Source of the DNA: Amyelois transitella
Lineage: Eukaryota > Arthropoda > Insecta > Lepidoptera > Pyralidae
NCBI RefSeq assembly: GCF_032362555.1
Contig: NC_083517.1
Coordinates: 6,654,001-6,718,000, forward strand
Length of the DNA stretch: 64,000 bases
Direction of reading: 5' to 3'
Shown here piece after piece: positions 1 to 51,775 of this stretch (within the stretch, counting starts at the first letter, position 1; each line of letters begins with the position of its first letter). The notes below the pieces were generated by a model. It saw only the letters and a program-made list of their open reading frames with translations. It did not search any database and had not been told where the DNA came from. The translations under genes were made by a program, and so were the position numbers.

Positions 1-413
1 TCTTAAACATGTCATTTCAGTCTTTGCGAGACTTTTGGTCTTGTAAATTCGGTAACGGATAAAGACGTGATAATATGCATGTTAGTATGTATTCATATTT
101 AGTTCCATAGTTGTTGTTTTTGATCAGATTTATTTTATTGATAATTATTTTTATCGTGGCTAGCTTGCATCCCGAGGAGGAGGCCGGGCTTTTGTGTCCA
201 ATAATAGTATTAAAATAAAGTTTTTTATTGACGTCGCCAGCCCTATGAATTTGTTAATTTGACGTTTCAACGTTCCCAATTGGATTGGAACCCACGCGCC
301 GCCCGCCACTGACCCTCCGGCCATTCATGAAATTACTATTAAGACATCATCCGCAATAATTATGCCTATACAAATATATTATCTAATGGCAAAAATGTGA
401 CATTTTGTCTGTA

Positions 414-673
414 CATACATACATACATATGATCACGTCTATATCCCTTGCGGGGTAGACAGAGCCAACAGTCTTGAAAAGACTGAATGGCCACGTTCAG
501 CTATTTGGCTTAATGATAGAACCGAGATTCAAATAGTGACAGGTTGCTAGCCCATCGCCTAAAAGAGGAATCCTAAGTTTATAAGCCTATCCCTTAGTCG
601 CCTTTTACGACATCCATGGGAAAGAGATGGAGTGGTCCTATTCTTTTTTGTAATAGTGCCGGGAACCACACGG
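414..673 (-). mobile_element. SINE1 retroposon, complete copy with target-site duplication
   Basis: The 3' tail of (TACA)n on the plus strand lies at the left and the 5' head ending in CCACACGGCA lies at the right, so the element reads on the minus strand. A perfect 13-bp direct repeat, CATTTTGTCTGTA, flanks it at 401-413 and 674-686. The body carries the conserved CAGTCTT/AAGACTG hairpin and the TCTTTCCCATGGATGTCG block found in all other copies. It has no ORF. Direct repeats of this length point to target-primed reverse transcription by a LINE; the likely partner is the RTE LINE of this window. Confidence 0.88.
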
Positions 674-924
674 CATTTTGTCTGTATGTACGACATATAC
701 CTACCAGTAAATACTCCTCTCTTTGCCGGAACGACTTTTCAATGAAAATATAACTACTTGGTTGAACAATCATGGAACTGGCGTTTTTTATATGACCGAT
801 CCGTCTATAATTATATGACAATATCACTCTGACTCTGATACACTTGACGACTGGTCTTCAAGAGTGAGGAAAATAAGTAATTTCTATTAGCCACTGCTGT
901 TTGACCTCCTTTACCCGGTTACCA

Positions 925-13128: not shown

Positions 13129-16100
13129 ATGAAATTATTCAAAATGGTCAAAATGGATTTAGCTGGGATTCTTTTAGTGTTTTTAGGAATCGGTAAGTTG
13201 AGGTATATTTATAACAAGCTTTATTTGTAAATCATATTCCTTTTAAAAAATAATACAATTGAGCGTTGATTCCCGTTACATACATACATACATACATAAA
13301 ATCACGCCTCTTTCCCGGAGGGGTAGGCAGAGACTACCTCTTTCCACTTGCCACGATCTCTGCATACTTCTTTCGCTTCGTCCACATTCATAACTCTCTT
13401 CATACAAGCTCGGCGGTTTCGGGTACTTTTGACCTGGCCCTTTACCAGGACGTCCTTAATTTGATCAAGATACGTTCGTCTAGGTCTTCCCACTCCGACC
13501 TTTCCCTCCACACTCTCCTTGTATATCTGCTTAGTCAACCTGCTTTCATTCATCCTCTCCACATGACCGAACCATCTTAACATACCCTTTTCTATTCCTG
13601 TAACTACATCTTCTTTCACATCACAACATTCCCTTATCACGCTGTTCCTTATCCTGTCACTCAATTTCACACCCATCATACTCCTTAACGCTCTCATTTC
13701 CACTGCATTTATTCTGCTTTCATGCTTCTTTTGCCATACCCAACTTTCACTCCCATACATTAATGTCGGGACCAACACGCCCCTGTGCACAGCCAGTCGA
13801 GCCTTTTTGGATAGTTTCTGACTGCTCATAAAGGCATGCAAAGCTCCATTCACCATGTTCCCCGCGTTCACTCTCCTTTCAATATCACTATCATACTTAC
13901 CATCTGATGTAAACTTTGATCCTAGATATACAAACTCTTTCACTTGCTCCACTTTTTCTCCTCCAATCAAAATATTACATGCTGTCATTTCTTTCTCCAT
14001 TTCAAAAACCAGTGTTTTAGTTTTACTTACGTTCACTTTCATTCCTTTCTCTTTTAAAGCTTCATGCATACAGTTTACCATCTCCTGTAACTCCTCCGCT
14101 GATGACGCCAGTATAACCTGATCGTCGGCATAGAGCAGACATTTGACGAGTAACTCATTCATCCTTAATCCACTTTTAGACTCTTTCAAATCTGTCAAAC
14201 AGCTATCCATAAATAGGTTGAACAGCCACGGTGACGCAACACATCCTTGCCTAACGCCTTTCTCAATCTTAAACCACTCAGTGTGCGCTCCGTTTATCCT
14301 GACACAAGCACTCGAATCCTCATATAAGGATTTCAGTGCTCGTATTAAGAGACTGCTCACCCCATGCATAGAAAGTGCTGACCACAATTCATTCCTCTCA
14401 ACTCTGTCATAGGCCTTTTCCAGATCTACGAATGTGCAATAGACTTTTTGACTCTTGGCCAAAAACTTTTCGGCTATGCACCGCAAGGAAAAGACCTGAT
14501 CAGTACATCCCATTCCCTTTCGAAATCCCGCTTGAGCATCCCATATTTTGTCATCAGTTTCATTCCTGACTCTATTAATCAATACCTTAGCATACAATTT
14601 GCCGACGACGCTAAGCAGGCTTATACCACGATAATTTTTGCAGTCCAGCTGTGACCCTTTTCCTTTGTAAAGTGGCACGATAACAGCCTTACACCAATCT
14701 TTTGGTACTCGGCCGCTTCTCCAACACAAATTGAAAAGGCAGTACAACTGACTAGCTACTACGCCTTTTCCTGCTTTAAGCATCTCGACCGACACTCTAT
14801 CACACCCAGCAGCCTTTCCCGCTTTCATACTCTTAAGTGCTTCCACAATTTCGAACATTTCAATTTCGCCTTCCATCTCATTCTCTTTTTCTTCGCTATA
14901 GCAGAAATCTTTCTTATTTCCTTCCTTTTTTTCAAATAAACTTTCAAAATAGTCCTTCCATATCTTTAGTACACATTCTTCTCCTTTCACAACGCTACCA
15001 TCCTGGCATCTGATCCTAGTCAGCTCTCTGGTTATAGTATTTCCTCGGGCTGACCTTACGGATTTCCAGAATACTTTCAGATTTGACTGAAAGTCTTCTG
15101 ATAGCCTTTTATCAAAATCCTCTTTATACTCTTCTTTCTTTCTAATCACAGCTTTCTTAACCAAATCTTTCATTTTCTTATATTCCTTACGTGCTTCATT
15201 CACATCTTCATCTATAACCTCTTGCATTCTTAAGTTAGCTTTTGCTGCTAACAAATCCAGCCATGCTTTCTTCTTTAATCGCACAAGTTCTTGCACATCT
15301 TTACTCATCCACGCATTTTTGTGATTTTTTTCCTTTCCTTCTTCTACTTACACCACACACTTCAACAGCTACTTTCACAATTCTTTCTTTAAATTCCTTC
15401 CATCCATCTTCAATATCGCTCATTTCCTCTAAATCTTCAAATTCATCCTTCAGTCTATTAATATACTTCTTACCTACATCCATATCTTGCAAATTTTCTA
15501 CTTTTACTCTTTCCAAAGCGCTGGTTTGCTCCCTTACCCTGTGCCGCCAGCGATTGAAGATACCCCTTATCCGGGATATCACCAGTAAATGGTCCGAGTC
15601 AATGCCAGCACCGCGATATGCACGGGTATCCAGCACTTTGTTCTTCAATCTTTCATCTACAATCACAAAGTCTATCATACTTTTTAAAATACCTTCCACT
15701 CTTGTGTAGGTGTGGATCTCTTTATGTTGAAACATTGAGTTCGACACAAAAAGATCCCACTCTAGACAAATTTCTAATACACTTCTTCCATTATCATTCA
15801 CCTTTTCGTCACCAAACGCACCAAGCACCTTTTCATATCCATCACGCTTTACACCCACCCATCCATTAAAATCACCTAACATAATAATCTTCTCATTTGG
15901 CTTGGTAACTTTCAATACTTCTCTTACACTATTCCAGAACTCCTCGTTTTCGCTTTTTGCTGATGTTGTACCCCTCGAACCCACATCCCAAGGTGCATAA
16001 ACACCTAGAACGAAGATCCGAGTGATTCCAACTTTCAGCCTAATCCATAGAAGACGAGGGCTGACACACTCATACTCATTCACGCACTCAGCCATTCGTG

Positions 16101-19100
16101 CAGAAAGAATTAGACCGACCCCTTGACAGCCTCGGCTGGTACTGGAAATTCCAGACCAATACGCCGTGTAAGGGCCGTGCTGCGTCGCGTCGCATCCTTT
16201 CCGCTTCGTTTCATTCACGCACAACACATCCAAACGTCTTTCATCCATCATCTGGCATACTTCCTCAATCTTATCCTTCATTCCTCCTCTTACATTCATC
16301 GTCGCAAAGCGGCTTTCAGCAGACCGCATACCGCTCCCGCCGGGAACGAGACGTGATGGGGTGCGGACACCATCGCCGCCATTTATATGCTTTTTAAGGT
16401 TCATAATGCGATTCCCACGAGACGCTAGGGAAAAATTTTGTCCGCCCCAGCAGAGCCCCGCATGCCAGGGTAAGGCTAGCCATTACCTGGGGGTCGCCCA
16501 ACCCCATGGCGGAAGTGGCACGCTCGAGACTAGGCTCGCCCCTAGCCATGCATCCATCGGCGCGGCAGACCTTAGATTGGCAGGGATTTACATTAAAGAG
16601 GAATCCCAAGTCTATCCCTTAGTCGGCTCTTACGACATCCGTGGGAAAGAGATGGAGTGGTCCTATTCTTTTGTAATGGTGCCGGGAACCACACGGCAGA
16701 TTCCCGTTACAATAGAATTAAATTAGACAATAGTGATTCGAACTCTCACAACGTTTATACATATCTTATATTAATCACTATAATGATCGCCAATCTTCGT
16801 CAAAAAAGAGTATTTTTTACGTCCGGCTGCTAGTTTAAAACCAAAACGTTTTGTAAATATTTAATGCTTTGTTTTAATTATTTTTAATGGTAAATTCTGT
16901 TGTTATATGTTCTGCTCGTTTTAAATTTTGTCTTTTAAAACACTCATTCATTGTGGTCTTCCTAGGCGACTGTTGAGTGTAATTAAAAAAATTTGAGAGT
17001 CTTTGTACTTTTTATTCAGGTCAAGTAAAAACGACGACGCGCCCTCTCACAAATATAGATGTATTGATGCTGTCCCTCAAATCGCAACAGTGGACCAACG
17101 ATGAGGCCCTATGTATTGACACAATGATAGCTACATTAACACATGCGAAAAACTTCACAATGTGGGCCGTCTGGTGTAAGCATAACTTGGTTATATTTTT
17201 TTGTTATAAGCCTAATTATATATTTACATTCATCAAGCCTCCTTTGATAGGCAGACACTTTCTAAATCATAAGCCTAACAGACATTGCGTAACATTACTG
17301 CCAGATTTTGAAAATAATAAATAAAATAAAAAATTATAAATAACTTCTTGAAGCTGAAGTTTTCATGTAGTACTTTCGCTTTCATTTAAGGTAATATTCT
17401 TCCAACATCTATTAGAATACATTATTCTATTCTGCCTAAATTCCGTCATCTTTCTTGTTTTAATACATGATACCATATATACTTATGTATACTCGCAGGT
17501 ATACACCTTCCTTCGAAAAATTGCTTCCTTTAGTTTTTTTTAAGTATTAAATTTGTTGCAGATGTGGATTCAATGCAATTACCGACTGGGCAATTATATG
17601 GAGCCCTGAGTCACTTGGGTAACTACGACGAATGTCTGTCTTCTCATCGTGTTTTCGACCACTCTGGACACGTTCCATCATTCAAGTACTGTATGAATGA
17701 AGTTTCATTGACAAACAAGCTAAAGAAGGAAATATTTTCTAGAAATCCTAATGTTACAACAGACCTCTATTTAAATGTAAGTTAGGTTTTGTTTTAACCA
17801 TTCGAGAACGCCTAAGGTATCAACCATCTTGTATAATCTAGGATGCCATTCGGAACTTACTTGTAGTAATCGTACGGACATGAACTAACAAGCAGAGGTA
17901 AAAGAGCACGTAGAACCGCTTACTGTATAAATTTCTATGCAGCTAACAAATAACTGTTTCTAAAAGCACCAATGTTTTCCCGAGCTTTGATTTGATTCGA
18001 TTAGGATTCGATAATAATCCTAATTACTGAAATACTAAATACAGCTGAACCGGCACAATCACTAATGGAGAAGTATTACACAGGAAAATTATTAAAAATA
18101 AATTATAAGAGAATCTGTAAAGTAAAAAACAAGGAATATTGTTTAGTCTCATAAAAAATATTTCTAGAAGTAGTACTGACAATCTTTCGTTAAAATCATG
18201 GCTCTTTTCATATTTTCGATTTCCTAGTAACACACTTCACTGCTACGCATCGAGGTCCAGGGTCCGCTTCCCGACGTGTGAAACTCGTATCAGAAATTCA
18301 AATTTTACTACTTCTATACTTCTGACAAACATCACATTTTTTCTGCAAAATTTCTAATGAGTCATTGTTTAACTTCTTTCATATTTTTGTCTATTTGTGA
18401 AATGACATCAGAATAAAAAAAATGTCATGGGATGTTATTTATAGGTACAATGACGTAAAAGTTATGTACGTATTCCTACTTTTTTAATACGTTTGTTTAT
18501 CATATTTTTGGAATTGCCTTTCAGTCTTTTGATGACTGTTGGCTATGTCTACCCCGTAAGGGATATGGACGTGATTATATGTAATGTTATGCTACATTGA
18601 ATGTTATGAAAATGAAACGTCTCTTTTATCAATTTTATTCGATGTTTTAGAAAAGGACGACTTTTAAAAAAAGCTTATCAAAACTTTTTTGGGGACTTTG
18701 TATACCCAAGGTCTGCGAACCACATTCGGTGGCCAAGATAACCCGAGCTTACATGCAGACCAGCCATTTGTCTCCCATGGACAATACTACAAACATCAAT
18801 GTGTCTTACTGTAGATCTGGAGAGCCTGAGCAAACTTCATTAGCATTTTACTTATTTGTGTAAGTATCTGTAAAGATTTTGACCTGCTGCTACAACTGGA
18901 GAGCATCTGTTGAATGCCCAATTATTACACATAGTCAATACCTACCTACATAAATTACTAGCCTAGAATATTATTACTCAATGCTTCTATGCTGTTCTGG
19001 AAGCGAAAAGATATGTAGCGGTGTGCCACTACTTCTTCCCGCCCGAAAAATAACAGTCAATCGAAGGCTCATACAATTAAAGAATAAAGCCTTAGTATTT

Positions 19101-22100
19101 ATGTCTGCTTGCGTTAACCATATTTTGCTATTTTCAGAATTTTTACAGTTTCATTTATATTGATGACGGTGTCTTGTACTTACTACTTATCAACCCTTAA
19201 ATCACCTCCTAATACATTTGGTAAGTGTTACCGTATCATATTAACAGATATTTTTTTATAGTATTCTTTAGTCTCTACCAACTCTTTCGGGAAAGAGACG
19301 TAATGTAAATTCAACGTTTATGTTTCGTCTGTTCGTAACTGCTGATACGCCTGGAAAAATGTCAGTCATTGGGGTCATAATTATTTCGTCTTTTCTCTCA
19401 GTTGCGTTTTCCTTGGGGAGTAACTTCAGATCCGCCAAAGACACCAACAGACATTTTCTGTCAAGAGTTACAAGTTGAAAAAAAGTGTGAACGTGATTCC
19501 CATCTAACAACATCTTTATACATGATAACAAGTAGACTAACTCAGCTTCAACCACAATTATTACACCAAGTGAAATTGCTTTTTCCTTTGTAGCGGAAGC
19601 GATAATTCGGCTCAACCGCCACTATAGGGAAGATCTTCCGCCAGGCTAGGTGTTATGCCTGGGCAACCGATGATGTTGTGTCGGAGGTTGTATATATGCT
19701 CCAGTCCGTGAAATCTTTGCTGGCATAATTTCGACTTTTCGCTTTCGATGTCGCCCCACCTTTGGACCTTTATTAAAATGCTGGACACGGCACTCATCGT
19801 CATTTATTGACCAGTATCAGTATATTATTTCTATTTTTGTTTACCTACGTTTATTGGTTTCATTTCAGTTGGCGCGTTGGCAAAATCATTTAGCTTAAAA
19901 AGAAACATGGAAGAACTGACAATACTCCGAGGTAGCGAAATATTTTCAATGAATATAATGCGTATCCTTTCGTCAGTTCTGATCATATCAGGCCACATGG
20001 TACAAATGAACTTGTTTCTTACGGTGATCAATTTTATGGACGCTGAAGAAGTAAGTCCAAAATGATTACATTTCAAGACACAAAACACTTTTTATCTCCT
20101 ATATATATAAATCTGAAGTTAAGTTACCGAGTACAAGTTACCACCGCCACCTACAAAAAATACAGGTTTTCCGCAAATCCCACAAGAACTATAGTTTTTA
20201 CCGGGATGAATTACTCTATGTCCTTCTCTAGACTAAGTTTTATATAACCCGTGAAGAGGTGACAAACAAATAAACTTACTTTCACATTTATAATTTTCCC
20301 TTCCCTCCCATCCCTTATGGAGTAGACAGAGTCAACAGACTTAAAAATACTGAAAGGCCACGATCATGACGTCTCTTGGCTTTGTCTACCTAAACTAAAC
20401 AATACAGGAGTAACTAACTTATATCTCCTAGCTGCAGATAATATTTTCTTTTTGATTCCTCTTAATTTTTGTAGTTAGTTCGTATGACAAGTGCTAGTTT
20501 ACTGCACCTGGATTTGATGACAGACTCCTTTTTCACCATCTCCGGATTACTGTTCATGAAAGGAATGTTTTCCGACAAACGAAAAAGTCCTTTGAAATTT
20601 ATGTGGAAGCGGTATATCAGGTTTGTCTTTTCGCATTATAAGCCAAAAAATATATGATGAGGATACGATTTTATATAATCAAATAAATTGCCCATATAAG
20701 TGTCTTTTTTAAAACCTATCTATGCTATCATGACCATAGTAACTAAATACTAAAAGCCGTGTGGTTCCCGGCACCAATACAAAAAAGAATAGAACCACTC
20801 CACTTCTTTCCCATGGATGTCGTAAAAGGCGAATAAGGGATTGGCTCACAAACTTGGGATTCTTTTTTAGGCGATAGGCTAGCAACCTGTCACTATTCGA
20901 ATCTCAATTCTATCATTAAGCCAAATAGCTGAACGTGGCCATTCAGTCTTTTCCAGACTGTTGGCTCTGTCTACCCCGCAAGGGATATAGACGTGACCAT
21001 ATGTATGTAGTAACTAAATAGCAAATAGTTTTACTTAGCACACATATCTATAATCAGTCAGGTCCTTTGTTACCAACAAATGTGCTTTAAATATTCTGAT
21101 TGAATTGAATTAATGAGAGTTATTCTACCTATTTGTTACGTCTTCATATAATATATCTTGCTTTATCTTATTTTCATGTAACAATAAGTATGTTATTAAT
21201 TGCCTGATTTCAGGTTAACAGTGGCTGCAATGTTCATTGCTGGTATCATCGCTTTGGTACTGCCATACGTTGGCGATGGTCCTCTGTGGAATACTTTACC
21301 ACAAGCAGACATAGAGTCATGTAAAACCAACTGGTGGCGTAGCATTTTGATGATTCAAAACATCTTGGAGCCAAGAAACATGGTAATACTCGTACTGGCA
21401 CAATATTTGACACATTAAACTGTAACTTAGTCTAAGGTTAAACCAAAGTACCTGCGGTGCATGAATACATTTAAAGTATGAATTTGATCCGAAATAAGAC
21501 AGAACGCCCAACTGTCTTATCCGGCTAAACATCATATGGTTTCTAGACTTAATCTCGCGCAGATCGTAGAAGGCAATTGACAGAAGTAATTGCTGTGCCG
21601 ACCCCACGTAGAAAGTGAGAAAAGGTAACGACAAAGAAGTAGAAGAAGATCGTAGAAGTCGATCAGCCCCTGTAGCGGCCCATGCGACGTCGTTTTTATC
21701 ACGCGCGATAAATCCATTCCTGTTTCGCTTCTATTATGAAGCGAAAATGGACAGAGTGTTTCCGCCAAAGGCAGAATAACGTGTAACATCGATAGTTTCT
21801 CGCGCAATATAAATGCCCGAGATATGTGGTAAAATACATAAAAATTATCTTATGATTTAATGTTTATTGTTTTGCCTTTCAGTGCAACCTGGTAGCCTGG
21901 CAAGTGTCCTGCGACTTTCAACTTAGTATAATAGCAGCAATACTGTTCTGGGTTTATCAAAAAAACAAACGACTAGGAAAATTATTGCTTTCCCTTACAG
22001 TTGTCTTGGGAATGATTCAAAGTGGACTAATTAACTGTTGGCATAAATTGAGTCCTATACCTTTCAATGGTTTTGAGTGAGTTATCTATGTTTATTTTAA

Positions 22101-25100
22101 TTCTATTTACTGCGTTGGCATAGAACATATACCGTTCATCAGTCGGGGCCATGTTGGTCTGGTAGCGAAGAAAAAAAGTAGTGCGTGCCAGCTGTTTCTC
22201 TTCCCGTGTAGATTGTAAGAGTCAATCTAAGGAAAGGCTAATAAACTTGGAATTCTTCTTTAAGGCGATGGACAAGCAACCTCTTAATATTTGAACTTCA
22301 ATTCTAGCCCGGTCGTTGCGATAATTCCTAACAAGCTGGAAATAAGTAAAATCAGTTTAAATATAATCTATACATATAATAAAACAGTAAAAATATTTTA
22401 TCTGTACATTTTTGACTGAAATGGATAGAGGGACACTTAGAACGAATTATTATTCGTTCTAAGTGTCAAAGCAAAAATTTTTTTAATTTTTTGTTTATGT
22501 ATGATCACGCTTATCTCCGAAAGTACTGAACCGATTTACTTAAAACTTTTACCAATTGCTTTATTTTTACTCAGAAAAACATTTAAAGATCGGTTCACTA
22601 AAAAAAAGTTATCGTCATTTGAATGAACACAAGGCATGAGTTTGCCTGCAAATAAGTTACGAAATTTGAAATTCAATGTCATTTATATAAAAATAACAAA
22701 CATAATAATAACATATAAATGAGTGAAAAAAATGATTTTTACTGTTTTATTATATGTATAGATATTGTAAATTCAACTCGAAATTTACGCGGACGAAGTA
22801 GCAGCAAGTAGTTTGTAACGGTTCTCTATCTATTAGTATAAAATTTTGTGTCATAATTTTACATGGCATACCTTCGTTTAGCATAATAATTGTTACGCAT
22901 AATATTATTTGGCATAACTTTTTAGGAATATTTCTTTAAGGATACCTACTATTAGCATAACCTAACCTTACCTAACCTAAGAAGTACTCGCCTTATAGCG
23001 CATTACACTACATCTGGTCCGCGCAAGAAATAAATTATTCTAAACTATATTTATGCCTATTGAAATAGTATGCCAAAACCAATTATGCCAAAAAACTATT
23101 TTGACAAAAAATAGTATGCGTAACTCGTTATGCCAAACAAAAATAGGATAAAAATAATTAGTCTAATGAAAGGGATCTTCTTTGTAACAGCTAGTTACAA
23201 ATATTTTTTCTAAACTCTTTCCCATGGATGTCGTTAAAAGTGACTAAGGGATAGACTTGGGATTCTTCTTTTAGGCGATGGGCTAACAACCTGTCATTAT
23301 TTGAATCTGAATTCTATCATTAAGCCTAATAGCCGATCTTGGCCTTTCAGTCTTTCCAGACTGTCTTTTCTTAGCTAGCTCTGTCTACCCCGCAAGGGAT
23401 ACAGACGTGATTTCATGAATTCAGTCACAAACCCATTCCTTTGACCTCGTGTAACTGCTTTCCTTAAACTGAAATAATGGGGAGTTTTGAGCTAAAGCGA
23501 AACGAGGCACTGCAAGTCCTTTTACAGTGGTTAAAATCAAGGCTTGGCCCTGTCTACCCCGTAATAGATAAAGAAATGATGGATATAGGTAAATATTATT
23601 CATTTCAGAAACTTCAGACCATTGGGAAAACCTTCTGTTGAAAGGTATGTTAAAAATAAAATCAAACTCAAATTATTACTCATAACCTCATTAAACTGGG
23701 TATATATTACTAAATATTTTTTATGATGTTTACATGTAGCCAGATATAATAAATAAAGATATATATATATATATATATACTTTATTATATATATATGTAT
23801 GTATGTAATATCTTTATTGCATAGAAATTTACACAGTAACAAGAAAATAGTACATAGTTATAAAAGAAACAAATCACTTGCAATGTAGACATATATAACT
23901 TTACTTCGAACAATGAGGAGTGATAACTTCATTTGATAAAAGTAAAATATCAGGTAATAAATGTTACGAGAAACTGCGAATTCTTTCAGCGTTAGAGAAT
24001 CAACAGTTTTTTATGATGTTTATATGCAGCCATATACACACGCGCCTCCATTCCTGATTGGAGCGGCGATGGGGTATATCATGTACACGTATAAACCAAA
24101 CAATTACAGAAAATGTTTTGCACAGGTAAGTATAGTAATGCTTTCTCTCTGTCTTATTTTTAAATGCTCTAAAAATCTAATCGTGTCAAGAAAATTGTAT
24201 CATTTCATGTACTCGTAAGAAACACACACAAATACAAAGTAACGTCAAAGAGAAAACATATATATAGAACATAAACACAAGAATATAATTAAAGGTTCTT
24301 CTGAGCTCAAGAAGCTTCAAAGAAGGTCAAATTGTCCACTTAAATCAAATTTTACTTTTTTCCGTGTGGTTCCTGGTACTTTAGAATAGGACCACTCTAT
24401 ATCTTTTCCTTGGATGTCGTGAAAGGAGACTAAGAGAATGGCTATTAAACTTTGGATTCTCCTTGTAGCGCTGATGTAGCCATACAGCTGAATGATATAG
24501 ACGTGATAGTTATTTTTTGTGTCTTCTTCCTTGTATGTTTAAGTTCTGGTTCCATCGTCACATCTCTGGAGAGGTGCCCAGGATATTCTTTTGACCGTGA
24601 ATCCTGGATTGGGTAAGCTAGGTTTTTACACGAAGCGATTCCCATCTAACCTCCGCAACCTTTGTTGGTAAACCTAACCCGTATTGGATTCATGTTTACA
24701 GCATCCAGCCTGTATGTGTAGGTTTCCTCACGATGTTTTAAGTGACTATGAATGGATTAGTCATTGGTCATTGATCATTTTCATCTGTGCCTTTTCACCT
24801 ATTTGAGACTGTAAAGTTGGCGGTCCAAGTTCGAACCCCAACAAAAATAAGATATTTTTTTATTAATTTTTTTTTATGATGATTGAGTATTTTATTTAAA
24901 AAATCTGAAAATCACATATAATAAAACGGTAAAAATATTTTGTCTGTACATTTAGTATTTTGACTGCAATGGATAAAGAATTTTTTTTTACATTTTTTGT
25001 CTGTCTGTCTGTATCTGACTGTATGATCAAGATTCAACTCGAAACTTACGCGGACGAAGTCGCGGGCAACAGCTAGTATTTTATAAATTTTTATTATATT

Positions 25101-27502: not shown

Positions 27503-27831
27503 ATGATAAAAAAAATAAATTTGAAGATAACAATCATGATTGTTTGTGTGATCAAGTTTCCCTCCCGTTTCATCTTTTTTCAGTTCTAAGCCTTGATGTA
27601 AAAGTTAGGTACGAAAGCAATAAAAAATCATTTTCTTATTTAACATAACATTAAATATAATCACGCCTATATCCCTCGAGGGGTAGGCAGATCCCACAAT
27701 CATCAAAAGACTGAAAGGCCACGTTCATCTGTTTGGCTTAATGACAGAATTGAGCCCACTTCTTAAAGTGGAAACCTAAGTGTAAAAGCCTATCCCTTTG
27801 TCTCCTTTAACGACATCTAAGGGAAAGAGAT

Positions 27832-30800
27832 ACATACATACATAAACTCACGCCTCTTTCCCGGAGGGGTAGGCAGAGACTACCTCTTTCCACTTGCCAC
27901 GATCCCTGCATACTTCCTTTGCTTCATCCACATTCATAACTCTCCTCATGCAAGCTCGGCGGTTTCGGGCACTTTTGACCTGACCTTTCACCAGGACATC
28001 CTTAATTTGATCAAGATATGTTCGTCTAGGTCTTCCCACCCCGACCTTTCCCTCCACACTCTCCTTGTATATCTGCTTAGTCAACCTGTTTTCATTCATC
28101 CTCTCCACATGACCGAACCATCTCAACATACCCTTTTCTATTCCTGTAACTACATCTTCTTTCACATCACAACACTCCCTTATCACGCTGTTCCTTATCC
28201 GGTCACTCAATTTCACACCCAACATACTCCTTAACGCTCTCATTTCCACTGCATTTATTCTGCTTTCGTGCTTCTTTTGCCATACCCAACTTTCACTCCC
28301 ATACATTAATGTCGGGACCAACACGCCCCTGTGCACAGCCAGTCGAGCCTTTTTGGATAGTTTCTGACTGCTCATAAAGGCATGCAAAGCTCCATTCACC
28401 ATGTTCCCCGCGTTCACTCTCCTTTCAATATCACTATCACACTTGCCATCTGATGTAAACTTTGATCCTAGATATACAAACTCTTTCACTTGCTCAACTT
28501 TTTCTCCTCCAATCAAAATATTACATGCTGTCATTTCTTTCTCCATTTCAAAAACCAGTGTTTTAGTTTTACTTACGTTCACTTTCATTCCTTTCTCTTT
28601 TAAAGCTTCATGCATACAGTTTACCATCTCCTGTAACTCCTCCGCTGATGACGCCAGTATAACCTGATCGTCGGCATAGAGCAGACATTTGACGAGTAAT
28701 TCATTCATCCTTAATCCACTTTCAGACTCTTTCAAATCTGTCAAACAACTATCCATAAATAGGTTGAACAGCCACGGTGACGCAACACATCCCTGCCTAA
28801 CACCTTTCTCAATCTTAAACCACTCAGTGTGCGCTCCGTTTATCCTGACACAAGCACTCGAATCCTCATATAAGGATTTCAGTGCTCGTATCAAGAGACT
28901 GCTCACCCCATGCATAGAAAGTGCTGACCACAATTCATTCCTCTCAACTCTGTCATAGGCCTTTTCCAAATCCACGAAAGTGCAATAGACTTTTTGACTC
29001 TTGGCCAAAAACTTTTCGGCTATGCACCGCAAAGAAAAGACCTGATCAGCACATCCCATTCCCTTTCGAAATCCCGCTTGAGCATCCCATATTTTGTCAT
29101 CAGTTTCATTCCTGACTCTATTAATCAATACCTTAGCATACAATTTGCCGACGACGCTAAGCAGGCTTATACCACGATAATTTTTGCAGTCCAGTTGTGA
29201 CCCTTTTCCTTTGTAAAGTGGCACAATAACAGCCTTACACCAATCTTTTGGTACTCGGCCGCTTCTCCAACACAAATTGAAAAGGCAGTACAACTGTCTA
29301 GCTACGACGCCTTTTCCTGCTTTAAGCATCTCGACCGACACTCTATCATACCCGGCAGCCTTACCCGCTTTCATACTCTTAAGTGCTTCCACAATTTCAA
29401 ACATTTCAATTTCGCCTTCCACCTCATTCTCTTTTTCTTCGCTATAGCAGAACTCTTTCTTATTTTCTTCCTTTTTTTCAAATAAACTCTCAAAATAGTC
29501 CTTCCATATCTTTAGCACACATTCTTCTCCTTTCACAACGCTACCATCCTGGCATCTGATCCTAGTCAGCTCTCTGGTTATAGTTTTTCCTCGGGCTGAC
29601 CTTACGGATTTCCAGAATACTTTCAGATTTGACTGAAAGTCTTCTGATAGCCTTTTATCAAAATCCTCTTTATACTCTTCTTTCTTTCTAATCACAGCTT
29701 TCTTAACTAAATCTTTCATTTTTTTATATTCCTTACGTGCTTCATTCACATCCTCATCTATAACCTCTTGCATTCTTAAGTTAGCTTTTGCTGCTAACAA
29801 ATCCAGCCATGCTTTCTTCTTTAATCGCACAAGTTCTTGCACATCTTTACTCATCCACGCATTTTTGTGATTTTTCCCTTTCCTTCTTCTACTTACACCA
29901 CACACTTCAACAGCTACTTTCACAATTCTTTCTTTAAATTCCTTCCATCCATCTTCAATATTGCTCCTCTCATCTAAATCTTCAATTTCATCCTTCAATC
30001 TATTAATATACTTCTTACCTACATCCATATCTTGCAAATTTTCTACTTTCACTCTTTCCAAAGCGCTGGTTTGCTCCCTTACCCTGTGCCGCCAGCGATT
30101 GAAGATACCCCTTATCCGGGATATCACCAGTAAATGGTCCGAGTCAATGCCAGCACCGCGATATGCACGGGTATCCAGCACTTTGTTCTTCAATCTTTCA
30201 TCTACAATCACAAAGTCTATCATACTTTTTAACATACCTTCCACTCTTGTATAGGTGTGGATCTCTTTATGTTGAAACATTGAGTTCGACACAAAAAGAT
30301 CCCACTCTAGACAAATTTCTAATACACTTCTTCCATTATCATTCACCTTTTCGTCACCAAACGCACCAAGCACCTTTTCATATCCATCACGCTTTACACC
30401 CACCCATCCATTAAAATCACCTAACATAATAATCTTCTCATTTGGCTTGGTAACTTTCAATACTTCTCTTACACTATTCCAGAACTCCTCGTTTTCGCTT
30501 TTTGCTGATGTTGTACCCCTCGAACCCACATCCCAAGGTGCATAAACACCTAGAACGAAGATCCGAGTGATTCCAACTTTCAGCCTAATCCATAGAAGAC
30601 GAGGGCTGACACACTCATACTCATTCACACACTCAGCCATTCGTGCAGAAAGAATTAGACCGACCCCTTGACAGCCTCGGCTGGTACTGGAAATTCCAGA
30701 CCAATACGCCGTGTAAGGGCCGTGCTGCGTCGCGTCGCATCCTTTCCGCTTCGTTTCATTCACGCACAACACATCCAACCGTCTTTCACCCATCATCTGA

Positions 30801-31135
30801 CATACTTCCTCAATTTTATCCTTCATTCCTCCTCTTACATTCATCGTCGCAAAGCGGCTTTCAGCAGACCGCATACCGCTCCCGCCGGGAACGAGACGTG
30901 ATGGGGTGCGGACACCATCGCCGCCATTTAGGTGCTCTTTAAAAAAATTTGCATCCATGCGATTCCCACGAGACGCAAGGGAACAATTTTGTCCGCCCCA
31001 GCAGAGCCCCGCATGCCAGGGTAAGGCTAGCCATTACCTGGGGGTCGCCCAACCCCATGGCGGAAGTGGCACGCTCGAGACTAGGCTCGCCCCTAGCCAT
31101 GCATCCATCGGCGCGGCAGACCTTAGATTGGCATA
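27832..31135 (-). mobile_element. RTE-type LINE, copy B, slightly 5'-truncated, coding-competent
   Basis: The 3.3-kb element runs from 31135 (5' side) to its (TATG)n tail at 27832 and has a 10-bp target-site duplication, GGAAAGAGAT. Relative to copy A it lacks about the first 130 bp of 5' UTR, so it may lack the promoter although the ORF is whole. It lies 330 bp downstream of the NRF stop codon, in the opposite direction. Confidence 0.92.
27848..30958 (-). CDS. RTE LINE polyprotein: AP-type endonuclease plus reverse transcriptase (1036 aa, intact)
   Basis: The single ORF is the only protein such an element needs: it nicks target DNA and copies its own RNA from the nick. Endonuclease motifs are in order: MNVRG (Asn40), VNETKRKG (Glu68), GDFNGW (Asp181, Asn183), MIDFVIVD (Asp248) and SDHLL (Asp274-His275). 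Reverse transcriptase motifs follow: NYRGISLL, QAGFRKGMGC, FVDLEKAYDRV (Asp663), GVRQGCVASP and LLYADDQV (YADD at 761-764). The C terminus has RWFGHVERM and GRPRRTYLDQIKDVL. There is no RNase H and no gag-like ORF1. One ORF, this order and a simple-repeat tail fit the RTE clade; clade placement would need a tree. Start: Met at 30958; Met39 (MNVRGG) is an alternative. All catalytic residues are present, so it could supply machinery for SINE1. Confidence 0.9.
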   Translation of the reverse strand: MDANFFKEHLNGGDGVRTPSRLVPGGSGMRSAESRFATMNVRGGMKDKIEEVCQMMGERRLDVLCVNETKRKGCDATQHGPYTAYWSGISSTSRGCQGVGLILSARMAECVNEYECVSPRLLWIRLKVGITRIFVLGVYAPWDVGSRGTTSAKSENEEFWNSVREVLKVTKPNEKIIMLGDFNGWVGVKRDGYEKVLGAFGDEKVNDNGRSVLEICLEWDLFVSNSMFQHKEIHTYTRVEGMLKSMIDFVIVDERLKNKVLDTRAYRGAGIDSDHLLVISRIRGIFNRWRHRVREQTSALERVKVENLQDMDVGKKYINRLKDEIEDLDERSNIEDGWKEFKERIVKVAVEVCGVSRRRKGKNHKNAWMSKDVQELVRLKKKAWLDLLAAKANLRMQEVIDEDVNEARKEYKKMKDLVKKAVIRKKEEYKEDFDKRLSEDFQSNLKVFWKSVRSARGKTITRELTRIRCQDGSVVKGEECVLKIWKDYFESLFEKKEENKKEFCYSEEKENEVEGEIEMFEIVEALKSMKAGKAAGYDRVSVEMLKAGKGVVARQLYCLFNLCWRSGRVPKDWCKAVIVPLYKGKGSQLDCKNYRGISLLSVVGKLYAKVLINRVRNETDDKIWDAQAGFRKGMGCADQVFSLRCIAEKFLAKSQKVYCTFVDLEKAYDRVERNELWSALSMHGVSSLLIRALKSLYEDSSACVRINGAHTEWFKIEKGVRQGCVASPWLFNLFMDSCLTDLKESESGLRMNELLVKCLLYADDQVILASSAEELQEMVNCMHEALKEKGMKVNVSKTKTLVFEMEKEMTACNILIGGEKVEQVKEFVYLGSKFTSDGKCDSDIERRVNAGNMVNGALHAFMSSQKLSKKARLAVHRGVLVPTLMYGSESWVWQKKHESRINAVEMRALRSMLGVKLSDRIRNSVIRECCDVKEDVVTGIEKGMLRWFGHVERMNENRLTKQIYKESVEGKVGVGRPRRTYLDQIKDVLVKGQVKSARNRRACMRRVMNVDEAKEVCRDRGKWKEVVSAYPSGKEA

Positions 31136-31424
31136 GGAAAGAGATAAAGAGGTCCTATTCTTTTTCTATTGGTGCCAGGAACCACACGGCACCTTTCTTG
31201 TTCAAGTAGGTAACAATCAATTTTGATGTTCACTGAGAGAAGAAATAACTTTCAGAATGGCTTAATTTTAGACTGTACCCATAGTTTTAAGTTATACAAG
31301 CTTATCAAATAATGTTGATTAAACATCGTAATTCAAAAACAGCTCAAAACTACGTCAATACCTTTAATTAATAACTTGCAAAATAAAAATGAAGGAAATA
31401 ATAAAAGATATTATATCCCATAAT

Positions 31425-31560
31425 CATGTTTATTGTACATACCTACATACATATACGTCACATCTATATCTCTTGCGGGGTAGACAGAGCCAACAGTCTT
31501 GAAAAGAGTGATAGGCCACATTCAGCTGTTTGGCTTAATGACAGAATTGAGATTATTATA
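31425..31560 (-). mobile_element. SINE1 copy, head truncated
   Basis: The tail (TACATACCTACATACATA) and ATATCTCTTGCGGGGTAGAC through CAGTCTTGAAAAGAGTG and GGCTTAATGACAGAATTGAG match SINE1. The copy stops before the middle of the body. Confidence 0.8.
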
Positions 31561-32699
31561 AGAGATGTTTATTATAATACTATATTTCCCCCTATAGTTG
31601 GAAATATTTGCTTTGCCAGGTGCAATCACAGATTTTAATTATTAAAAAAAAACAAATATGAAAATTGCACAAGCAGGTGTTCATGAACTATTTTATTGCA
31701 ATTTCCATCATATGTTATTACACAGATATTTTTTATGCTCAGTATGAATAATAAATTGAAGGCAAATATCATAAGCATTGCAATCACATATTTCAATGAC
31801 TGACATCCTCTTATTTAAATAAGTAACTTTTGTCACAGCTCCGTCTCCGTAATAATTAATAATAACTCAAATTCCTAGTTATTAAGTACATTTCCAAGGG
31901 AATTACGGGAAATTCTTTTCATAGTGCTAAGCGAACACCTGTGGCCTGTTGATGTGGTTTTTTAATCGAGATTTTGAAAGACAAAATTGCCAAAATTAAC
32001 AACATAATTGAACGAAACGTAAAGAAATACACATAGAAAAAAGCACTAGAGTACACGTAATAGTAGTCAGGCATTCAGTAAAGAAGGATTTGAAAAAGCT
32101 AATGTTTTTAGTCAGTTTTTGCAAATTATTTCTCATATTATTGTTTCCCAAAAAATAATTCTAACAGAGAAAATTAAAACTATGGGAACGAAGCTTTAGG
32201 CAAAAACTAGACTCTCAATAATTCTTCTCAGATGAACTTTCAATTGTTTTTTTAAACCCATGCAGGCAAAATAAATGACAGGCCAAGTTTATGGTTATGA
32301 GGCCTGCGCAATTACTGTAGTCTCCACCACCTAGGCTTAACCACTTAAACCACATTCTTTCCCACACGATATTTCTTTTTTGAAGATGCACCCAGACGCA
32401 ATCAACTTTTTAACTTAAGCGTTATAGCATTCACGTGACTTCTTGTTTTGTTTAAAACGAGTGAATATTTCTTTCTTTTAAGTATAGGGTAGTAAGGTAT
32501 TTGGTTTTTTGCTTTTGACTTACAACTCTAAACTCTACTTATACAATATTTTTAATATTATATCCATCGGAACTACAAAACTATTTCTGTAGCTTTTTGT
32601 TTAGCCTCAAAAAGTACTATTTTATCCCTTGTTCCAATTTTATACTCTTAATAAACCACTTAACATGATCTCGATTGTGAATCTAAAAACCAGTTTATT

Positions 32700-32977
32700 T
32701 GTTTATTTCGCGAGATAGCAGTATTTGCGAGAGAACGGTATCCTCTCTCGCGAGTTCGGTTCATATTGGTCATCGTGTCAACGTAGCGGTACCGCCAAGT
32801 GTACGGTCAAGGCTTGTTGGCGGGCCCGGCCTGGATTCTCCAATAAGCGAGCCCCAGCCAAACTGGCGGCACGTCTCTGCTGAACTTGGCAATTTTGTAA
32901 GCCGCTAATAAAAGTAACCAGCGAGTATTCTTTTTTTTTATTCAAATTCAAATACATAATAATTTAAAAAGTTGTCG
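32700..32977 (+). promoter_or_regulatory. Candidate promoter / 5' UTR exon of the GMC gene in a GC-rich island
   Basis: This block is much more GC-rich than its surroundings and contains an 8-bp hairpin, GCGAGAGA/TCTCTCGC, near 32727-32751. It is followed by a strong donor, GTCG|GTGAGT, at 32978. A matching acceptor (GATATTGCAG) ends at 33396, just before the GMC start codon, implying a 419-nt 5' UTR intron. A 69-codon frame at 32699-32908 has no known motif and is probably not coding. It could also be an LTR fragment, given the AATAAAAG near 32908; I cannot decide. Confidence 0.35.
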
Positions 32978-33399
32978 GTGAGTATTATTTTATTTCTCTT
33001 TTTTAAACATTATTTAAATAATTCTATATAATAATAATAATCATTTTATTAAAGTGCACTTATAATGGATATTAAATTTTAATTAACACATCGGCTGACA
33101 GTAAACTTGTGTACGTATATTTAATTGATTTTAATTTAAGTATCGTTTGGTAATTAAAGTCCTAATTTAACTCTCTCTGATCTTATTATTTTCTTAATTA
33201 TATTCTCTATTAGCTTTAAAGCTCGCAAGTTACATTACGGAATATATAATATAGCATTACGGAAGGTAGTCCATTAACTGGGCAGTGAGTGAACACAGGA
33301 AAAATAGAGTAGAAACTAGAAATCAAACATAATTTCATTTTGTAATTAAACAATTTTAAATATTATTTACTATTTAACATTTTAATGATATTGCAGAAA

Positions 33400-36300
33400 A
33401 TGAAGAGACTAAAAATCACGCATCTCTTTTTTCTAATTGTTGTTTCGGGATCGCATTTGAAAGCCATGGAAGTTGATTCCGATGATGAATATATAAGTAT
33501 AGAGGAAAACATAATCCCTGAGTATAAATCAAAAGTTGAGAGTGCTCACAGAGAATCGAAGGTTCTTCGGCCATATCCTCTAAATCACAAGAAAGATGAA
33601 AATGAAAAAAGTGAAGGAAATAATTTGGATGTAAACAGAAAAGCGCGCTTTTTGCCATTTTCTTACCCCCAAAGTCCGATTGTAGATCTTATGATGCAGA
33701 CAGTGTCCAATAATTATTCGCCCACAAACGCGAGGGATCCATTCGACTTCTTGCGGGATTCTTATCCGTTACCTAAGGGTAAGCTATCTTATATTACTTT
33801 AGAAGTTTTCAAATTTTCAAAACTTTGGTTTGGTAATGAAAAAACCGTCAGCGAAGCAGATTAGTTAACCAAACGGATTCTCACAACAAATAACTGCAAC
33901 TGCAAAAAAATCATCTTTTCGCATAAAAAACTCTGAATTATTCTCGTTAAATGAAATAGTAAATGAGTTTTATTAGGCTTATTGTATATACATAAGTACA
34001 TTTTGAAAGCTGGTGATAACTATTACTTACATACATACACAACTTTTTCAGGCTATACAAGTCCTTTAGAAGAATATGACTACATTATAATCGGAGCAGG
34101 TTCAGCTGGATCAGTTCTAGCATCGCGGCTCACGGAAGACAAACCAAAAGCCATGGTACTGGTCATCGAAGCTGGAAAACCGGAATGTCTCCTTTCGGAT
34201 ATACCGGCTTTAACCCAGTATCTGCAGCAAACAGACTATATTTGGCCGTACAGAATGGAACACCAATCCGGAGTTTGTATGGGTAAGTGTTTATACAAAT
34301 ATTAACAGCACAGTGACACCTACCCGTAGAGGAGCACCACATAATTACGTCTTTATCCCTTACAGACTACACAGAGCCAACATGCCTAGAGTGAAAGACT
34401 GATCAGTCATGTTCAACTCTATGACTTGATAAGAGATTGTGATTCAAATACTTATAGCCCGGTTGCCAGCACATCACCTAAAAAAGAATTTTGTTATTGT
34501 TAGTCTCGATTAACTTTTTAAATTGTTAGTAATTTTTTTTTACTTTTGATTGGAGTCATGATCGTTCTTGATTCATAAATCAAAACTTCTTCTTCTTTCC
34601 AAAGAGATGTTAAAGAATTTAAAAAATGTGCCGTGTGGTTCCCGGGTGCCGTGTGGTTCCCGGCACTATTACAAAAAAGAATAGGACCACTCCATCTCTT
34701 TCCCATGGATGTCGTAAAAGGCGACTAAGGGATAGGCTTATAAACTTAGGATTCCTCTTTTAGGCGATGGGCTAGCAACCTGTCACTATTTGAATCTCGG
34801 TTCTATCATTAAGCCAAATAGCTGAACGTGGCCATTCAGTCTTTTCAAGACTGTTGGCTCTGTCTACCCCGCAAGGGATATAGACGTGATCATATGTATG
34901 TATGTATGTATTTAAAAAATTATGCACATAAATTTGCATAAATTTCGAGTAACCTGAGTACTATAAGGTACCAACATACTATATCGATGATACAAATTAA
35001 GGTTATCAAATACATATTAAGTTCACAAGTTTATCGGGTCGATATTAAGCAGTTAGTATTGAAATTCAATTCGTTAAAAAAATAAACCCTCGAATCCATA
35101 ATTAGTATAATAGACATGAGTTTGTGTTATACTTTATTGTCATATAGGAAAAAAAACAAAAAATGGCATAAACGCTCAAACCACGTTTTTGAGATGTCTT
35201 AATTGATGATTCGAGTCTTATTAGTTACCATTATTGGTTGCAATCTCCTACGAGAATTTGAATTTAGGTTAACATTTCAACGTAACGGTTGCAACTAAAT
35301 CTTTGCAAATATTAGTCAAATACTTGGTAAAGATCAGTCTTACTCCCTATATTAGTATTGTTAATTAAATTAATCGTATTACCAAATTAAAATTTCATAG
35401 TTAATTTAGGAAGTCATTAGGCTACTATATGGTACCCCAATTCGCTTAAAAGACTAATAACTTCAAAAAGGAAAATTTTGAAAATTACTGTTAAATGGCA
35501 CTCCTACATTCATTTCAGGAAGTGAAGGACAGCGCTGTTATTGGCCTCGAGGCAAAGCTGTGGGGGGAACTAGTGTTACCAACTACATGATGTACACAAG
35601 AGGGCGCCCTCAGGACTGGAATAGAATTGCGGCCGATGGCAATTACGGATGGTAAATTTCCAATATTTTTATACCACTCAGTTCCTGCTCAAGGTGAAAA
35701 GAAAATCATCGAAAGGGTCCAAAACCATAAGGTAAAAGTAGAAATACGACAAAGATATTTTAATTGAGAAGAACAAACTGTCACAAGATCTATCTGCCGG
35801 TAAGGGAATCCGCAGCGCAAGGCACGTTGTCTCGTTGATGCCAATCCACTTTAGGAATCAGTATTGCAATATTTTAATACGCATGTAACGATCTTTACCT
35901 GTTCCAATTGGACTTTTCTCTTTCCCCTTTGTCTAGTCTACAGCGTCATCAGTTTTCACATATTATACTCTATTTCAACCTTAATATAATGGACACACGG
36001 ACAATCAAATATTAAAATGGGCTTTCATTTTTGTTGCAGGTCTTATGATGAAGTTTTAAATTATTACAAGAAATCAGAGAGAGCCGAGCTGAAAAAGTAC
36101 AAAAGCTCTCCTTACCACGGCCGAGATGGCGAACTAACTGTTGAAAACGTTCCATTTAAGTAAGTTTATAATTTGTAATAGCTTTGACGTTAAAGCGCCT
36201 GATGAAAAAGTAGAGCAAAATTTTAAAGGAAATTGCAAAAAGAGGATTATGCAATTTGACAATTTCTAGTAGTTTTAGATAAAAAAAAATGATTTTAGAG

Positions 36301-45184: not shown

Positions 45185-45438
45185 CATACATACAAATAGT
45201 CCCGTCTATATCCCTTGCGGTAGACAGGGCCAACAGGCTTGAAAAGTCTGAATGGCCACGTTCAGCTATTTGGCTTAATGATAATTGAGATTCAAATAGT
45301 AATAGGTTGCTCGCCCATCGCCTAAAAAAAAATCCCAAGTTTGTAAGCCTATCCCTTAGTCGCGTTTAACGACATCCATGGGAAAGATATGGAGTGGTCC
45401 TATTCTTTTTTGTATTGGTGTCGGGAATCACACGGTAC
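45185..45438 (-). mobile_element. SINE1 retroposon, complete copy with target-site duplication
   Basis: TAAAGTAGACTA is repeated perfectly at 45173-45184 and 45439-45450. The tail is short (CATACATACA) and the head slightly diverged (GTGTCGGGAATCACACGGT). It sits between the two parts of the Helitron composite and is therefore younger than it. Confidence 0.85.
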
Positions 45439-51331: not shown

Positions 51332-51775
51332 TGACGGCCTCTGTGGCGCAGCGGTAATACGCTTGTCTGTGACACTGGAGGTCCCGGGTTCGAATCCCGG
51401 CCAGGGCATGATGAGAAAAGAACTTTTTCTGATTGGCCTGGGTCTTGGATGTTTATCATACATACATACAACATATGATCACGTCTATATCCCTAGCGGG
51501 GTAGACAGAGCCACCAGTCTTGAAAAGACTGATAGGCCACGCTCAGCTGTTTGGCTTAATGATAGAATTGAGATTCAAATAGTGACAGGTTGCTAGCCCA
51601 TCGCCTAAAAGAGGAATCCCAAGTTTATAAGCCTATCCCTGGATGTTTATCTATATTAAGTATTTATTATATTATAGTATCGTTGAGTAGTATCTCGTAA
51701 CACAAGTCTCAAAGAACTTACTTCGAGGCTAACTCAATCAGTGTAATTTGTCCCGTATATATTTATTTATTTATA
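51332..51775 (+). mobile_element. tRNA-derived SINE family B, interrupted by a SINE1
   Basis: The head GACGGCCTCTGTGGCGCAGC carries an A box and B box (GGTTCGAATCC) as in the copy at 26699. The element continues to 51456, resumes at 51640 after a SINE1 insertion, and ends near TAATTTGTCCCGTATATATTTATTTATTTATA. Confidence 0.85.
51457..51639 (-). mobile_element. SINE1 copy nested in SINE B, 5' truncated, with target-site duplication
   Basis: TGGATGTTTAT occurs at 51446-51456 and again at 51640-51650; the uninterrupted SINE B at 26699 has it once. The copy begins with the (TACA)n tail and stops within the body at AAGCCTATCCC, lacking the shared head. This is the usual 5' truncation of LINE-driven insertions. 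Confidence 0.9.

Follow-up and report, generated by a model that had tools for sequence, protein, structure and literature searches.

A 5' end resembling a SINE on a young RTE-type LINE of Amyelois transitella, probably acquired from the SINE twice

In mosquitoes, the 5' region of the LINE MosquI-Aa2 contains Feilai SINE sequence. Non-autonomous RTE elements of bipartite structure, together with SINEs derived from such elements, have been published (PMC7245038, citing Kojima 2018), and the part of that source dealing with these chimeras proposes template switching or recombination. For L1, fusions to Alu or to small RNAs are on record, and a swap of the L1 5' UTR has been suggested (PMC13174262, in its treatment of chimeric insertions). 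In trypanosomatids, Pr77, a 77-nt 5' promoter sequence, is common to a LINE and short elements and is described, in the abstract of PMC8190864, as one sequence in all of them. The lepidopteran SINEs HaSE1, HaSE3 and PxSE5 have as partners HaRTE1 and PxLINE1, with about 43 nt of 3' end in common and, for PxSE5 and PxLINE1, an (ATGT)n terminus (PMC3272025, PMC8010984, in their descriptions of these pairs). According to PMC8010984 there is wide variation between SfSE1, PxSE5 and PxLINE1 in the 5' region, and the descriptions of these pairs in the two sources mention no common head.

SINE1 of the pyralid moth Amyelois transitella resembles the bipartite RTE elements in being short and in having similarity both to the 5' part and to the 3' part of an RTE LINE; in those elements, as presented in PMC7245038, the donor is the LINE, whereas here the donor is apparently the SINE and the receiver the LINE. 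Unlike SINE1, HaSE1, HaSE3 and PxSE5 have tRNA or 5S heads (PMC3272025, PMC8010984, same descriptions). As in the L1 chimeras, a SINE or other RNA is joined to a LINE, and the authors of that work speculate about renewal of the LINE 5' UTR; however, its account catalogues the chimeras as insertion events (PMC13174262), whereas the fusion described here makes up a family numbering in the hundreds, with a LINE of RTE type, in an insect. The initial annotation knew of no description of the SINE1 family; the kind of element it envisaged, a bipartite short element with both RTE ends, was already in print (PMC7245038, as far as its account of such elements goes). The SINE1-headed LINE is a new variant beside what has been published on bipartite RTE-SINEs, on L1/Alu chimeras and on a suggested L1 5' UTR swap.

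The window, the whole stretch of 64,000 nt analysed, holds three copies of the LINE and several of SINE1 (Table 1). Copy A has two overlapping ORFs, with Pfam matches to RVT_1 (1.8e-41) and Exo_endo_phos_2 (1.2e-6). Endonuclease and reverse transcriptase domains, a (TATG)n tail and a target-site duplication are all present as traits of an RTE-type LINE, a name that follows the initial annotation and the published lepidopteran partners. Exact-pattern searches of viral and prokaryote contigs gave no relatives, and a reverse transcriptase protein search of viral contigs confirmed no relative. Folding z-scores, neither of them informative, were 0.13 for the LINE 5' end and -1.23 for SINE1.

Table 1. 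Positions of the LINE and SINE1 features in the window.
Feature	Position	Strand	Remarks
RTE-type LINE copy A, own part	13281..16582	-	TGCCAATC (16582) to (TATG)n tail; clade II
SINE1-like head of copy A, type H1, probably captured	16583..16698	-	SINE1 comparison and genome-wide junctions
Target-site duplication of copy A, left	13268..13280	+	13-nt direct repeat GATTCCCGTTACA
Target-site duplication of copy A, right	16699..16711	+	13-nt direct repeat GATTCCCGTTACA
LINE copy B, headless, clade I, nested in a SINE1 copy, orientations matching	27831..31133	-	
Head of the SINE1 copy that received LINE copy B	31134..31195	-	Arrangement could found a new headed LINE
Remainder of the SINE1 copy that received LINE copy B	27627..27829	-	
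SINE1, young full copy	34646..34920	+	244 nt identical in 40 other scored copies
SINE1, young full copy	402..675	-	99% to 34647-34920
SINE1, older full copy	20756..21009	+	
SINE1, older full copy	45189..45438	-	
SINE1 copy without the first 50 nt	23215..23420	+	H1's 8-nt deletion present
LINE copy C, 3' part, internal deletion, without 5' end	60287..61247	-	

Compared with SINE1 as far as a TTTT, the 116-nt head of copy A shows 6 mismatches over 106 positions, with gaps of 8 and 2 nt in addition. The target-site duplication encloses it, and the head thus came with the LINE. The likeness, the duplication and the recurrence of the same junction across the genome bear out the original observation that the SINE1 head is also the 5' end of copy A. 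A genome-wide check of LINE 5' ends had been proposed: with up to three mismatches allowed there are 685 LINE 5' starts and 451 junctions of the LINE with a head of the copy A type (H1); a second head type, H2, gave 12 junctions at the same threshold. The first 100 zero-mismatch starts listed (contigs 1-5) comprised 77 with H1, 3 with H2 and 20 headless. Both heads join at LINE base 1; the LINE itself begins with TGCCAATC. A 109-nt head query returned 42 matches from the 40 scored of 1,406 candidates: 40 were 100% identical over the full length, and the other two were a 99% inverted neighbour and a 27-nt piece. All 30 loci fetched from these matches (L001-L030) continue into the LINE. A one-off chimera at copy A is ruled out by these identical heads, by the loci that continue into the LINE and by the 451 junctions. 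Among 68 exact H1 junction copies (two places entered twice), the head match starts in the first three bases in 59, as expected if the RNA begins there.

Flanks were read by eye for 15 pairs, 10 of them headless. Three headless copies have direct repeats adjoining TGCC or at most 3 nt away (L070, L075, L083), one has a weak repeat (L078) and one a repeat with a 17-nt filler (L085); no direct repeat was found in the flank pairs of L077 and L086, L087 was doubtful, and no LINE 3' end was found for L067 and L084. Repeats enclose the head in the H2 copies L061, L065 and L071 (weakly in L062) and in the H1 copy L068. In a tree of the LINE, clade I holds 6 H2 and 7 headless rows and clade II 42 H1 and 4 headless rows, with a branch support of 100/100; two H1 places are duplicated (L008=L088, L015=L089), leaving 40. 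Apart from the rearranged L067 and L012, no row departs from the consensus by more than 1.64%, and the copies compared are young. The head is present on most of the young 5'-complete copies examined, which upholds the earlier view of it as a true inherited part of the LINE.

SINE1 is mobile. Direct repeats of at least 7 nt flank 29 of 30 identical copies, compared with 21 of 200 mismatched pairs, and the element carries a (TATG)n simple-repeat tail. The LINE-like tail ascribed to it is confirmed at a modest level: the local score of 15 was reached by 1 of 2,000 shuffles, 20 of 40 positions agree without gaps, and a similar stem is possible in both tails, with T-A in one tail at a pair where the other has C-G. 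On the LINE side the match covers mostly the end of the LINE ORF. Rfam gave no meaningful match for the SINE1 middle and none to an HDV-like ribozyme, 5S, tRNA or 7SL RNA for the head; these origins were rejected for want of an Rfam match and a box signal. The best score for pol III A and B boxes in SINE1 was reached in 467 of 500 shuffles and those for 5S boxes in 473 and 381 of 500, and ARAGORN found in the window only two tRNA-His copies, away from SINE1. In these tests SINE1 shows neither a head of tRNA, 5S, 7SL or snRNA type nor pol III boxes above chance, and no promoter was recognised, although it may have a divergent one. Fifty-five non-identical SINE1-like heads without a LINE (one place, L015/L089, counted twice) have about 64-95% identity to SINE1.

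Our main reading, with a probability of roughly 0.7, is that a LINE with its own transcript start TGCCAATC took the first ~105-120 nt of SINE1 as a new 5' end, probably twice, as H1 in clade II and as H2 in clade I. The direction is most likely from SINE1 to the LINE, apparently the reverse of the usual borrowing, because the heads are joined at LINE base 1, headless copies start there, and the SINE1-like heads vary far more among themselves than the LINE copies do. On the same evidence of a separate LINE 5' end, the initial annotation was probably wrong to derive the SINE1 head from the LINE.

Two routes to the junction appear nearly even, with nested insertion slightly preferred. On this route, the LINE would have inserted, in the same orientation, in the T-rich tract that ends a SINE1 head; RNA from the SINE1 start would run through the nested LINE, and copying of this fused RNA would pass on the head, which would then act as 5' UTR and perhaps as promoter. 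RNA of a headed LINE would begin at the head, and the LINE's own TGCC start would stay usable and yield headless copies in both clades. SINE1 itself would be mobilised by this LINE, or by one closely related to it, by way of the similar tail. LINE copy B, which has no head of its own, is nested in SINE1 between near-direct repeats AGG(G)AAAGAGAT. A (TATG)n tail lies at most 12 nt before TTTTAGGCGATGG, where heads end, at 34 loci, compared with none for a reversed-pattern control; of the 14 loci read, 10 were SINE1 in SINE1 and 2 were LINE 3' ends. A scan of a small DNA sample for a hot spot found no tail at the head's end and between 0 and 2 tails per point at the 39 points tested along SINE1, which weakens both the nested route and the head-donor proposal made below, and strengthens a template switch. 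The one LINE of the family read at the tail/TTTTAGGCGATGG loci, L157, was rejected as a parental locus, LINE sequence being absent at the expected 5' place; no parental locus was found.

A template switch is a real possibility, if one short of even odds, and stands as an alternative inside the main reading, not to be added on top of it. The reverse transcriptase would have reached the end of the LINE RNA at TGCC and then switched to an RNA of SINE1, with the direction still from SINE1 to the LINE. The position of the join at LINE base 1 fits such a jump. Fillers, tandem 5'-hairpin copies and inverted 5' copies at junctions (L005, L007, L034, L040, L046, L057) also fit, indicating that copying near the 5' end often goes astray; the mechanism has been proposed for L1 chimeras (PMC13174262, in that part of its account). 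In addition, the TTTT near which the heads stop could mark the terminus of a short RNA. However, no short SINE1 RNA is known, the pol III boxes do not rise above chance, and same-orientation nested SINE1-LINE pairs (copy B; L085) offer a route that needs no jump.

It is unlikely that the head is instead the ancestral LINE 5' UTR and SINE1 an internally deleted bipartite RTE derivative with an added middle. Headless copies would then arise through an inner start site, as indeed they could, and H1 and H2 would be diverged forms of one ancestral head; on our reading the headless form would come first. Published work calls bipartite derivatives of RTE common (PMC7245038, in the part cited above), and the ends of H1 and H2 lie at most ~10 nt apart in SINE1 coordinates. 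A tree of 32 heads, which are short, does not reject H1 and H2 as a single clade (AU p 0.47), compatible with one LINE-head clade. However, there are 9 differences between H1 and H2 in 106 positions and 19 between the clade bodies in 1,400 (Fisher P 7e-5), a roughly sixfold excess, and set against the LINE's own first 180 nt, with 2 of 180, P is 0.003; a faster-evolving head would weaken this rate argument for two captures. Similarity to SINE1 ends ~5-15 nt from LINE base 1, the headless start point, and SINE1-like heads are much more varied than the LINE rows. As for a bipartite RTE origin, most of the young LINE copies examined carry the head, yet it is joined at LINE base 1 and headless copies exist. 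Since the head tree leaves one clade possible, acquisition of the SINE1 head by the LINE probably twice is argued from the rate difference and from the confinement of H1 and H2 to two different LINE clades. Counting against the main reading, H1's 8-nt deletion was seen in a single SINE1 copy in 361 kb scanned, where the undeleted form had 67 matches.

That copy A simply landed next to an old SINE1, as copy B did, is next to impossible given 451 junctions of one form, and is refuted for copy A by a duplication that lies outside the head.

How LINE lineages come by a new 5' UTR or promoter is a standing question, to which chimeric insertion has been suggested as an answer (PMC13174262, within the same account). 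That one young LINE occurs headless, with H1 and with H2 in a single genome, together with a candidate donor family and the precursor-like copy B in the window, makes the step datable and testable. We propose tentatively that SINE1 may serve as a head donor for its own LINE: landing in the same orientation in the T-rich end of a head would give a working 5' end at no cost, so that LINE lineages would repeatedly renew the 5' UTR from their parasite, at least twice within ~1.4% LINE divergence, and one hybrid lineage would have taken most of the family. These observations suggest that exchange between SINE and LINE can go from parasite to LINE; one hybrid, H1, has spread to hundreds of copies, and if the direction is true, this reverses the customary view, in which the short element is the borrower and the long one the source.

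In the initial annotation, SINE1, a short mobile element family with a (TATG)n tail, was proposed to have taken both its head and its tail from an RTE-type LINE. The shared head was confirmed in LINE copy A, where a 13-nt direct repeat in the window sequence flanks the LINE and head together, outside the head; proteins of this copy match reverse transcriptase and endonuclease models. Copy B is not what that annotation may have taken it for, being headless and lodged in a SINE1 copy, and copy C lacks its 5' end.

Window copies of the LINE and the head of copy A
Feature	Position	Strand	Length	Remarks
LINE copy A	13281-16582	minus		own part; preceded by the 116-nt SINE1-like head
SINE1-like head of LINE copy A	16583-16698		116 nt	
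LINE copy B	27831-31133			own head absent; nested in a SINE1 copy, same orientation

We searched 327,366,114 bases in 33 contigs (the window lies on contig 13) for the head. Forty of 1406 candidates were scored, yielding 42 matches: 40 were 100% identical across 109 nt, and the other two were an inverted neighbour at 99% and a piece of 27 nt; the same LINE followed the head in 30 of 30 fetched loci. Genome-wide, the LINE 5' start (a 36-mer from base 2) occurs 685 times with at most three mismatches, and the junctions of LINE base 1 (at TGCC) with two SINE1-like head types, H1 and H2, occur 451 and 12 times. The head belongs to the LINE in most young copies examined. As these junctions number only 463, most of the 14,899 exact occurrences of the 21-nt head start (control 0) are presumably SINE1-type copies.

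Among 30 loci retrieved with the copy B 5' sequence, copy B itself included, 12 were headless, 12 carried H1 and 6 carried H2; the headless copies begin at TGCCAATC, save one of the 12 that begins at CGCCAATC. The first 100 zero-mismatch LINE 5' starts listed (contigs 1-5) comprised 77 H1 (including variants L128, L149 and L150 and some shortened heads), 3 H2 and 20 headless, with head type assigned by junction, coordinate lists and eye, and headless meaning no head-like sequence joined within ~124 nt upstream (some adjoin SINE1 or LINE sequence). Direct repeats were looked for by eye in fifteen 5'/3' pairs (10 headless, 4 H2, 1 H1). Clear repeats adjoined TGCC or lay at most 3 nt off in three of the ten headless copies (L070, L075, L083); L078 had a weak repeat, L085 a repeat plus filler and L087 a doubtful one, none was seen in the pairs of L077 and L086, and those of L067 and L084 did not reach the LINE 3' end. 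Repeats were clear in three of four H2 copies (weak in L062) and in the H1 copy L068, and enclosed the head in the headed copies inspected.

Several element starts are irregular. At L040, L046, L021, L057, L081 and window 34628-34645, SINE1 or headed LINE copies open with tandem copies of their first 18-30 nt, a hairpin unit (GTGCCG...CGGCAC), and L005, L007 and L034 have their own 5' end inverted just outside the element, resembling snap-back copying. By eye, ~10-21 nt of filler separates the target-site duplication from the element start at L085, L061, L071 and L068, and at L012 a 5S rRNA-like sequence with a TTTTT end, just upstream of 1501, directly precedes an H1-headed LINE, which may have inserted next to a 5S gene or form part of a triple chimera.

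The head-LINE association is real, and its direction is most likely the opposite of that first proposed. SINE1-like heads without a LINE formed 55 non-identical rows in sampled DNA (L015 and L089 being one place), at about 64-95% identity to SINE1, besides 40 identical SINE1 copies scored; no LINE row departs from the LINE consensus by more than 1.64%, two rearranged rows excepted. Similarity between SINE1 and headed LINEs ends a few bases short of LINE base 1, where headless copies start, a break not expected of an internally deleted LINE. Together, these sequence comparisons make it most likely that the head was added to the LINE, not taken from it by SINE1. L128 and L149, both H1 variants, resemble SINE1 more closely at several positions, as would be expected of older stages.

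The tail similarity claimed at the outset held up to a modest degree, with a score of 15 reached by 1 of 2000 shuffles and 20 of 40 positions identical without gaps. Each tail can fold a short stem, in which one position differs yet stays paired. Direct repeats of at least 7 nt flank 29 of 30 SINE1 copies, versus 21 of 200 mismatched pairs. We infer that SINE1 is mobilised by this LINE's enzyme. The tail signal overlaps coding sequence, since most of the SINE1-tail-like LINE segment (13302-13345, minus) belongs to the end of the ORF (SAYPSGKEA, stop). Two tRNA-His-like copies (26699-26770 and 51337-51408) within a 125-nt repeat (95% identical) both adjoin SINE1-like sequence.

The LINE likely captured a head twice, judging from the LINE tree and the divergences. 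In a tree of bases 1-1400 (59 rows picked by similarity, so that head-type proportions there are not estimates; L067 and L012 left out as rearranged, L064 as a copy B duplicate), LINE bodies split into two clades (support 100/100), one holding all 6 H2 rows with 7 headless and the other all 42 H1 rows with 4 headless; two H1 places appear twice (L008=L088, confirmed; L015=L089, by coordinates). Of 106 compared positions, 9 distinguish H1 from H2, in addition to gaps, against 19 of 1400 between the clade bodies (Fisher P = 7e-5, or 0.003 when the comparison is with the first 180 bases of the LINE itself). Against two captures, a single clade of LINE heads was not rejected in a 32-head tree (p = 0.47), even though in the best tree young SINE1 is joined by H1 and L128 (89/82), with H2 placed elsewhere.

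As to the route, a LINE inserting at the SINE1 head-end in the same orientation would yield SINE1 head plus LINE in a single step, and RNA beginning at the SINE1 start and reading through the LINE would make the head heritable. Elements bearing a (TATG)n tail do insert where captured heads end: a scan for this tail with TTTTAGGCGATGG, the SINE1 site in question, at most 12 nt behind it found 38 matches, spread over 34 loci, against 0 in the control. The 14 loci inspected comprised 10 SINE1-in-SINE1 insertions, 2 LINE 3' ends and 2 others. The LINE 3' ends are at L157 (H1/H2 LINE family) and L155 (related, more diverged, by eye); L157 is not a proven parent, because its expected 5' place showed no LINE sequence. 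No preference for the head-end point appeared in sampled DNA, where 39 SINE1 points had 0-2 such tails each and the head-end point none. Copy B is an example of such nesting at a different SINE1 point. In 59 of 68 exact H1 junction copies (two places counted twice), the match starts no later than the third base of the head. The head may hold a promoter; sequence searches for its type matched no pol III box or Rfam family. Nearly as likely as nested insertion is a jump between templates at the 5' end of the LINE, where tandem and inverted 5'-end copies at several loci point to error-prone copying.

Lepidopteran SINEs and RTE-like LINEs with common 3' ends are described in the parts consulted of PMC3272025 and PMC8010984; the 3'-end sharing here is alike. 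SINEs derived from bipartite RTE elements (PMC7245038, in part) and Alu/L1 chimeras with the idea of a 5'-UTR swap (PMC13174262, in part) are also on record. Among the open-access matches listed, no title or abstract opening described an RTE LINE gaining a SINE head and then spreading. The SINE-headed RTE LINE family is a variant within the known types of SINE/LINE chimera.
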